This document shows positions 29,177 through 36,850 of a stretch of DNA of 36,850 bases, piece by piece; position 1 is the stretch's first letter; the number at the start of each line of letters is the position of its first letter. The notes under the pieces are model-generated. The model saw only the letters and a list, made by a program, of their open reading frames with translations, did not search any database and was not told where the DNA came from. The stretch spans positions 1-36,850 of the forward strand of contig DATKQS010000021.1 of NCBI GenBank assembly GCA_035532555.1, in the 5' to 3' direction. A program made the position numbers and the translations under genes. The DNA is from Thermoplasmata archaeon. GTDB lineage: Archaea > Thermoplasmatota > Thermoplasmata > Lutacidiplasmatales > UBA184.

Positions 29177-29218
29177 GCGCGGTCGGCCGTAGCGGCCGCG
29201 TGTCCGTTCATAGAACCC

Positions 29219-29658
29219 TCTCGGCGCGGAGACCCCTCAACTTGTTGGGGGGAGGAGCGCCGGCACCTATTTGTGTTTCCCGGTGATGGCCCCGGCACAC
29301 AGCCGAGCGAGTTCCCCACCGATGGGAACGAGCACGCTCGGCGCAGGGTGCGCCCGCCCCCAAACACCTCGCAAGGGGTAAGGCACTCCCGCAAGGGAGC
29401 AACAGTTGAAGGTTGGGAACCGACGGGCATACGCACCAGACTCGGGGAGCTATGCCTCCGCAAGGAGGGGGCGGAAACACCTTTGATGCCCCTTCCCGAG
29501 CCGGGCCGCTTCCCGCTTCGTGCGGGTAGGGATTGGAACCCCGAAGTCGACCGGCCCATCGCGCTCCGTACCGTCGGTAAGACGGCGTTTTCTGGGGAAC
29601 CAGCCCCTGGACGGAAATTGGAAGCGCAAGCCACCGAGTTCAATCGGTGGTCGTTGAC
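29219..29658 (+). mobile_element. tnpB-less IS200/IS605-like mini-element (PATE/MITE-like)
   Basis: Left end: a hairpin at 29233-29252 (cccctcaa-cttg-ttgggggg, 8 bp with one G-T), preceded by tcggcg and followed by cctattt and ATGG. The tnpB element at 36553-36618 shows the same order: tcggcg, hairpin with the same cttg loop closed by a-t, cctatct, ATGG, at nearly equal spacing. Right end: hairpin ccaccga-gttcaa-tcggtgg at 29631-29650, preceded by ggaagc and followed by ttgac, the usual look of tnpB 3' ends, where the C-terminal '.EA' codons run into the final hairpin. Between them is only about 360 nt and no RuvC or zinc-finger coding. Exact ends are not defined, as no target duplication is expected for this family. 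Confidence 0.5.
29297..29658 (+). ncRNA. Highly structured RNA candidate, possibly omegaRNA-like
   Basis: Hairpins on the plus strand in order: gccgagcg/cgctcggc (29302-29309 with 29335-29342) enclosing gttccc/gggaac; acctc-gcaa-ggggt (29366-29379); ctccc-gcaa-gggag (29386-29399); cctcc-gcaa-ggagg (29455-29468); cccgc-ttcgt-gcggg (29512-29526); ccgtc-ggtaa-gacgg (29571-29585); ctgg-ggaa-ccag (29592-29603); ccaccga-gttcaa-tcggtgg (29631-29650). Three GCAA and one GGAA loops are GNRA only on this strand, which fixes the orientation. A ctatttg TATA-like element at 29267-29273 predicts a start near 29297, just before the first long stem. This fits a transcribed RNA. The link to TnpB guide RNAs is inferred from the ends; RNase P and SRP RNA cores were looked for and not seen. 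Confidence 0.5.
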
Positions 29659-29683
29659 TAGGGCCCGGAACATCGGGCGATCC

Positions 29684-36552: not shown

Positions 36553-36614
36553 TCGGCGAGCGCAAGCCCCCCTACTTGTAGGGGGTTAGCGAGCCCCCTA
36601 TCTACGCTGGGGGC
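36553..36614 (+). repeat. Left-end hairpins of the IS605-family tnpB element
   Basis: Hairpin 1 is cccccta-cttg-taggggg (36568-36585, 7 bp). Hairpin 2 is gccccc (36593-36598) with gggggc (36609-36614), directly before an ATG. Between the arms of hairpin 2 lies cctatcta, a TATA-like element. Subterminal hairpins of this kind are what IS200/IS605 transposases recognise. Order and spacing match the mini-element at 29219. Confidence 0.55.
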
Positions 36615-36850
36615 ATGGATGGAGTGCTACCGCCGAAGATGTATCACCCGAACAAGTACCGCCTCTACCCGTTTCCGAATCAGGAGCGGGAACTCCTCCG
36701 ACAGTTCGGCGAGTTGCGCTTTCTCTGGAACTACGCGCTCGAACAACGGCAAGATGCGTGGCGGAAAGAGAAGCGATCCATCTCGTACGTGGACCAGTGC
36801 CGGGGCCTTGCCAAGTGGAGAGCCTACGACCAGGAGGGGGTCGGGAGGGT
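36615..36850 (+). CDS. tnpB: TnpB (IS200/IS605 family), N-terminal part, cut by window edge
   Basis: The 78 visible residues match the start of TnpB, the RNA-guided nuclease of IS605-type elements and ancestor of Cas12. 'YRLYPFPNQERELLRQFGEL' is followed by 'RFLWNYALEQRQDAWRKEKR'. The second part has the RF.WNYAL pattern conserved in the helix-turn-helix/wedge region. RuvC residues lie beyond the window, so activity cannot be judged. Start: ATG at 36615 follows hairpin 2 directly. The TATA-like cctatcta at 36597-36604 would put transcription near 36627, making the in-frame ATG at 36639 ('MYHPNKYRLYPFP') the better leaderless-type start. No tnpA is visible to the left, so it is an IS1341-like or right-facing arrangement. 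Confidence 0.8.
   Translation, partial: MDGVLPPKMYHPNKYRLYPFPNQERELLRQFGELRFLWNYALEQRQDAWRKEKRSISYVDQCRGLAKWRAYDQEGVGR

Follow-up and report, generated by a model that had tools for sequence, protein, structure and literature searches.

The mRNA of tnpB is also the source of the omegaRNA, which TnpB itself processes from it, and the nuclease is thought to be responsible for maintenance of the transposon (PMC10278001). In the omegaRNA (or reRNA) of the ISDra2 TnpB, bases -6 to -2 before the guide pair with bases -106 to -102 in a pseudoknot that is coaxial with stem 1, and the 5' part of the molecule is dispensable (PMC10097598).

The RNA described here resembles that of ISDra2 in its pseudoknot at the same place, in the stem 1 that surrounds one pseudoknot strand, in its terminal hairpin, in a predicted guide taken from the host DNA that adjoins the right end and in a T-rich target motif, but it is carried by a mini-element without tnpB, extends upstream by about 200 nt of RNA that is both structured and conserved, and holds two hairpins (P8 and P9) in the loop of stem 1. 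Stand-alone, trans-acting IscB omegaRNAs, copies with no nuclease gene at the locus, were reportedly described by Altae-Tran in 2021; unlike these, the RNA here is of TnpB type and sits within a mini-element that is mobile and has an additional conserved domain of its own. The host is a 1.6 Mb genome placed by its neighbours in the searches in the class Thermoplasmata, which are acid-loving archaea, and the window analysed is the whole of its contig G000:C21 (36,850 bases, complete). Like the PATEs and IS605-derived MITEs of Haloquadratum and other archaea, which are presumably moved in trans by TnpA, the element is gene-free with near-terminal palindromes of IS605 type. However, the accessible part of the PATE account describes deletion derivatives and there reports no conserved RNA (PMC3119063), whereas the internal RNA here is conserved class-wide. 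IStrons likewise join IS605 ends to a structured RNA; the present element differs in having no group I intron match and an archaeal host. We consider it probable that this is a non-autonomous IS200/IS605 mini-transposon whose sole cargo is a stand-alone omegaRNA, which uses TnpB in trans and which belongs to a class-wide family.

Borders, ends and copies of the mini-element

The mini-element is of IS200/IS605 type and occupies positions 29212-29658 of the plus strand (447 nt). The first-pass annotation had taken it to lack tnpB, which is borne out, and had proposed comparison with other copies in the same genome; two more full copies were found (C23:88775-89213, 91% identical; C24:91853-92291, 88%), making three at 88-91% identity with unrelated flanks. 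Conservation between the copies sets in directly past a TTCAT motif at 29207-29211 (plus strand) and stops at GTTGAC, which ends at 29658, and these limits therefore define the element. The right border originally drawn at 29658 is retained by this comparison, whereas the left one, placed at 29219, moves seven bases further left. TTCAT, the target and presumed transposon-adjacent motif, or a close variant of it, lies outside several copies, 5' of the left end; by family, the motif is TTCAT-like in several and TTTAT-like in another.

The element has no terminal inverted repeats and no transposase gene, but does have subterminal hairpins at both ends and a fixed target 5' of the left end, thus meeting the criteria for a non-autonomous IS200/IS605 element (PATE/MITE). 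The left-end hairpin (29221-29263, plus strand) is held in common with an autonomous element on contig C19 of the same genome (38618-40252), both ends of which match the mini-element (97% over 31 nt at the left, 94% over 33 nt at the right). Both genes of this autonomous element are intact, encoding a 153-residue Y1-type TnpA and a TnpB whose TNB domain is Cas12f1-like. A TATA-like box, CACCTATTTGTG, is present at approximately 29265-29276; it is recognised from its letters only.

A covarying RNA fold across Thermoplasmata

A dense RNA structure had been proposed for this locus, partly from GNRA hairpins seen on the plus strand only. Counting stems of 4 bp or more, we find four such hairpins on the plus strand, three with GCAA loops and one with GGAA, and none on the minus strand; a total of four GNRA hairpins was reached in 0/1000 mononucleotide shuffles (mean 0.29). 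Single-sequence folding energy is only moderately unusual (z -2.65 for the plus strand, -1.35 for the minus strand), and we set it aside as weak support; the single-sequence fold differs from the one that covariation supports. The case for RNA structure rests on covariation, not on folding energy. Across five close relatives, changes on both sides are observed in 9 of 57 pairs, against 4.3±1.4 in shuffles, and the diverged copy of a sister species (G006) shows many compensatory changes. When the alignment was extended to 25 sequences, both-side changes were found in 48/57 pairs (shuffles 34.9±2.4; slid partners at most 27), with a covariation score for the 25 relatives of 0.482 compared to 0.152±0.008 for shuffles and 0.07-0.08 for slid partners. 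The signal persists in 18 held-out relatives, at loci none of which was used in building the covariance model R2, where 18 of 27 pairs show both-side changes against 8.1±1.8 in shuffles. Covariation in related genomes, the lack of which was to have counted against the proposal, is thus strong in all these sets and confirms a dense structured RNA.

The proposal would equally have fallen to a clear match with another RNA class, but an Rfam search of the RNA at the gathering threshold, HEARO included, returned no family, whereas RNase P, TPP and tRNA sequences adjoining the elements were recognised. On this ground we excluded group I and II introns, RNase P, HEARO and other Rfam classes, none of which matched. 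This bears directly on whether the element could be IStron-like, a self-splicing group I intron fused to IS605 ends. The structured RNA does extend from near the left end to the right end, as it does in IStrons (PMC4227781), but the window copy matched no group I or II intron of Rfam at E 10, and neither did ten diverse loci at E 0.5, although RNase P, TPP and tRNA in their neighbourhood were detected. No archaeal IStrons turned up in a survey either, and we regard this origin as barely conceivable.

A first covariance model (R1), built from five close sequences, gave strong matches in distant families of Thermoplasmata. The second (R2), restricted to the P5-P9 part of the RNA, located it in 29 of 400 sampled Thermoplasmata genomes belonging to 18 genera, and in a draw from the whole phylum its matches were confined to genomes of this class. 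Two relatives, G182 and G269 of family f19, have genomes that consist of a single contig. At the inspected loci the RNA lies between a left-end and a right-end hairpin in an element of about 400-480 nt without tnpB, excepting copies cut by a contig end. The guide-type RNA in a tnpB-less element is thereby supported, but the simple loss of tnpB envisaged by the first-pass annotation is not: the internal RNA domain shows independent conservation throughout the class, always in elements lacking the gene. Nor is the elements' RNA encoded by the 3' end of tnpB, as is required of a TnpB omegaRNA.

The same data weigh on the reading of the element as an ordinary PATE or MITE, a deletion derivative whose folding merely reflects leftover palindromes and whose RNA has no function. 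Gene-free PATEs with IS605 ends are common in haloarchaea (PMC3119063), but an internal domain kept by compensatory change over 18 genera is not expected of neutral filler. Covariation refutes this explanation for the family as a whole, and we regard it as very improbable, although it could hold for single decayed copies such as that at L105 of G347. There, a decayed RNA copy lies at about 1230-960 on the minus strand beside a complete tnpB element; a joint element carrying both tnpB and the RNA was considered and rejected, since the tnpB element possesses a right end of its own and the RNA forms a distinct copy. At another locus (L032 of G006, 1420-1450), a hairpin like an IS605 right end lies just upstream of the mini-element and possibly belongs to a nested or neighbouring element. 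A sequence-pattern scan of genome contigs yielded, among the matches examined, one true homologue, which is the same record as G006; its viral match, L071, was discarded as resembling coding sequence, and two further patterns gave no match against viral sequences.

Architecture of the RNA

All features that follow are on the plus strand. The P1 hairpin (29302-29342) is limited to the closest copies and absent in G006. It is followed by a multibranch domain, P2 (29347-29437), supported by covariation and containing hairpins P3 and P4 with GCAA loops. P2 is wholly missing from three copies (L090, L094 and L099) that start directly at P5, and this part is therefore dispensable. In the copies at L088 and L089 (G195 and G165) the P2 region seems rearranged, with AAAACGGUU ahead of GGCACUCC, the opposite of the usual order. 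The P5 stem with the P6 hairpin (GCAA loop) and a conserved GGAAACACCUUUGA segment (29439-29502) is present in all alignable copies, at the site, immediately upstream of stem 1, that a simple hairpin occupies in the tnpB 3' end. P7 (GGGCCG/CGGCCC, 29503-29557) is the counterpart of omegaRNA stem 1, and its loop carries the inserted hairpins P8 and P9. Given that ISDra2 can dispense with the 5' part of its omegaRNA, conservation of the 5' domain here needs another reason; this extra domain is new and unexplained.

The pseudoknot is formed by GUCGAC at 29546-29551, approximately -113 from the guide, and GUUGAC at 29653-29658, which is both the guide-proximal strand and the end of the element, such that -113 to -108 pair with -6 to -1, the last six bases before the guide. 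Other copies have the distal strand, GUC(G/A)(A/G)C, mostly at -80 to -114. All six pairs are observed in 29/37 copies and at least five in 36/37, none of 5000 re-pairing control trials did as well, and in four families GUCAAC-GUUGAC has switched to the compensated GUCAGC-GCUGAC. Between stem 1 and the right end lies a 3' module corresponding to stems 2/3 (29558-29629), here of a kind we call type B (UCCGU...GGGGAACCA.CCCC...ACGGAAAUUGGAAG; the 3' motif is also written ACGAAAACUGGAAG). The terminal right-end hairpin (29630-29651) matches omegaRNA stem 4, has 94-100% identity with tnpB right ends in the genus, and shows fully compensated changes between copies. Beyond the element, the host flank TAGGGCCCGGAACATCGGGC (29659-29678) differs in every copy and is the predicted guide, a role inferred by analogy with TnpB biology.

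In the RNA-bearing genomes the right ends of tnpB elements fold into a hairpin and then stem 1, whose loop contains the pseudoknot strand. Relative to these, the mini-element RNA keeps stem 1 (P7) and the pseudoknot, has the larger P5/P6 in place of the simple hairpin, and has gained P8 and P9 in the stem 1 loop. The structural features required of a TnpB omegaRNA are present, namely a pseudoknot between guide-proximal bases and a strand about 90-115 nt upstream, a stem 1 that encloses this strand and a terminal hairpin next to the guide; position, fold and sequence all identify the 3' half as an omegaRNA, although TnpB binding and guided cleavage are inferred.

Such an RNA might instead act as a decoy or regulator, its omegaRNA-like 3' half binding TnpB while the large 5' domain inactivates the complex, so that the mini-element silences the resident TnpB and spreads unpoliced. 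A conserved 5' domain beyond the needs of known TnpBs, the imperfect pseudoknot or end of some copies, and the finding that TnpB cleavage can be inhibited by part of a tnpB mRNA (PMC10278001) would all fit. Nearly all copies, however, keep the pseudoknot, the terminal hairpin and a precise boundary with the variable flank, features that matter less to a simple decoy, and inhibition strikes us as rather unlikely.

Scaffold sharing and the resident TnpB

Mini-elements and resident tnpB elements have the 3' scaffold in common. In G203, 95/95 nt agree between the mini-element and a tnpB element over the block that runs from the start of the pseudoknot strand to the element end, with different flanks, and the same block is shared at 96% in G322, 94% in G370 and 94-96% in G195/G165. 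Similarity to the 3' end of a tnpB in the same genome, on which the first reading had been made to depend, is present for the window copy too, but only in two end blocks: its matches to resident tnpB elements are confined to the pseudoknot/stem 1 block (GUCGACCGGCCCAUCG around the pseudoknot strand, 95% over 21 nt) and the terminal hairpin (94% over the terminal 33 nt). Its type B module is common to mini-elements of G142, G041, G217 and G046 and was not found on any tnpB element fetched. Two copies in G041 (L094 and L099) have nearly identical internal RNAs and two different 3' (right-end) modules, suggesting that the module is exchangeable between elements. A mini-transposon whose sole cargo is an omegaRNA-like RNA, conserved independently throughout a class and combined with an exchangeable 3' scaffold, appears to be new; no description of such a family was found in the literature searched, which was limited to open PMC papers. 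Because the right end is also needed by TnpA, sharing it with tnpB elements need not mean that TnpB uses the RNA.

The genomes supply a further link. At least one tnpB is present in 27/29 RNA-bearing genomes compared to 190/400 of those sampled (47%; one-sided Fisher p 9e-8), a test that ignores kinship and general transposon load, whereas G317 (91% complete) and G006 (79% complete) contain a copy of the RNA with no tnpB found. TnpA was detected in 6/13 RNA-bearing genomes searched, in five of them above the family cut-off, and movement would therefore depend on rare donors. A role apart from TnpB, as a TnpA cofactor, with an unknown protein partner or as a self-acting RNA that borrowed IS605 ends for mobility, draws on the strongly conserved unpaired sequence of P5/P6, on a 5' domain without counterpart in known omegaRNAs and on the absence of a detected tnpB from G317. 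It must contend with a 3' half that is omegaRNA in position, fold and sequence, with an RNA whose presence follows tnpB, and with the lack of any Rfam ribozyme or riboswitch match; we judge it unlikely without thinking it negligible.

Returning to a guide RNA for TnpB, transcription might start from a promoter behind the left end, and the product would fold as an elaborated omegaRNA with a 5' domain, stem 1, pseudoknot and stems 2-4, its guide being supplied by the host sequence that adjoins the right end. TnpB from an autonomous element of the same genome would bind it in trans. Once TnpA, also supplied in trans, had excised a copy, TnpB would cut the matching empty site beside TTCAT, and we propose that repair from the sister chromosome would then restore the mini-element. 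The 5' domain may stabilise the RNA or position it for loading, replacing the tnpB mRNA that delivers the omegaRNA in cis. Transcription, TnpB binding and empty-site cutting are inferred from known TnpB biology, without expression data. More tentatively, and with slightly less than even confidence, we suggest a class-wide, RNA-only mobile lineage that has its own conserved guide-RNA chassis and adopts the 3' scaffold of the resident TnpB, a gene-free parasite exploiting and adapting to several TnpB lineages in trans. If TnpB is indeed used in trans, it is a shared resource and gene-free elements can be kept by a nuclease encoded elsewhere through a purpose-built guide RNA. Trans-acting omegaRNAs and the 'empty-site repair' model would become directly testable in archaea, Rfam would gain a missing RNA family, and the extra domain, which may stabilise or regulate TnpB guide RNAs, could serve compact editors.

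As to the partner nuclease, whose use in trans is inferred, a TnpB of the C19/C13 type is more likely than that of the element at the right edge of the window, which the first-pass annotation had offered as an example and whose left end differs. Other tnpB copies were used in the 3'-end comparison, as the edge gene runs off the contig end. This last element sets in at 36568 with a different left end, its tnpB beginning at about 36616, and is cut at 36850.
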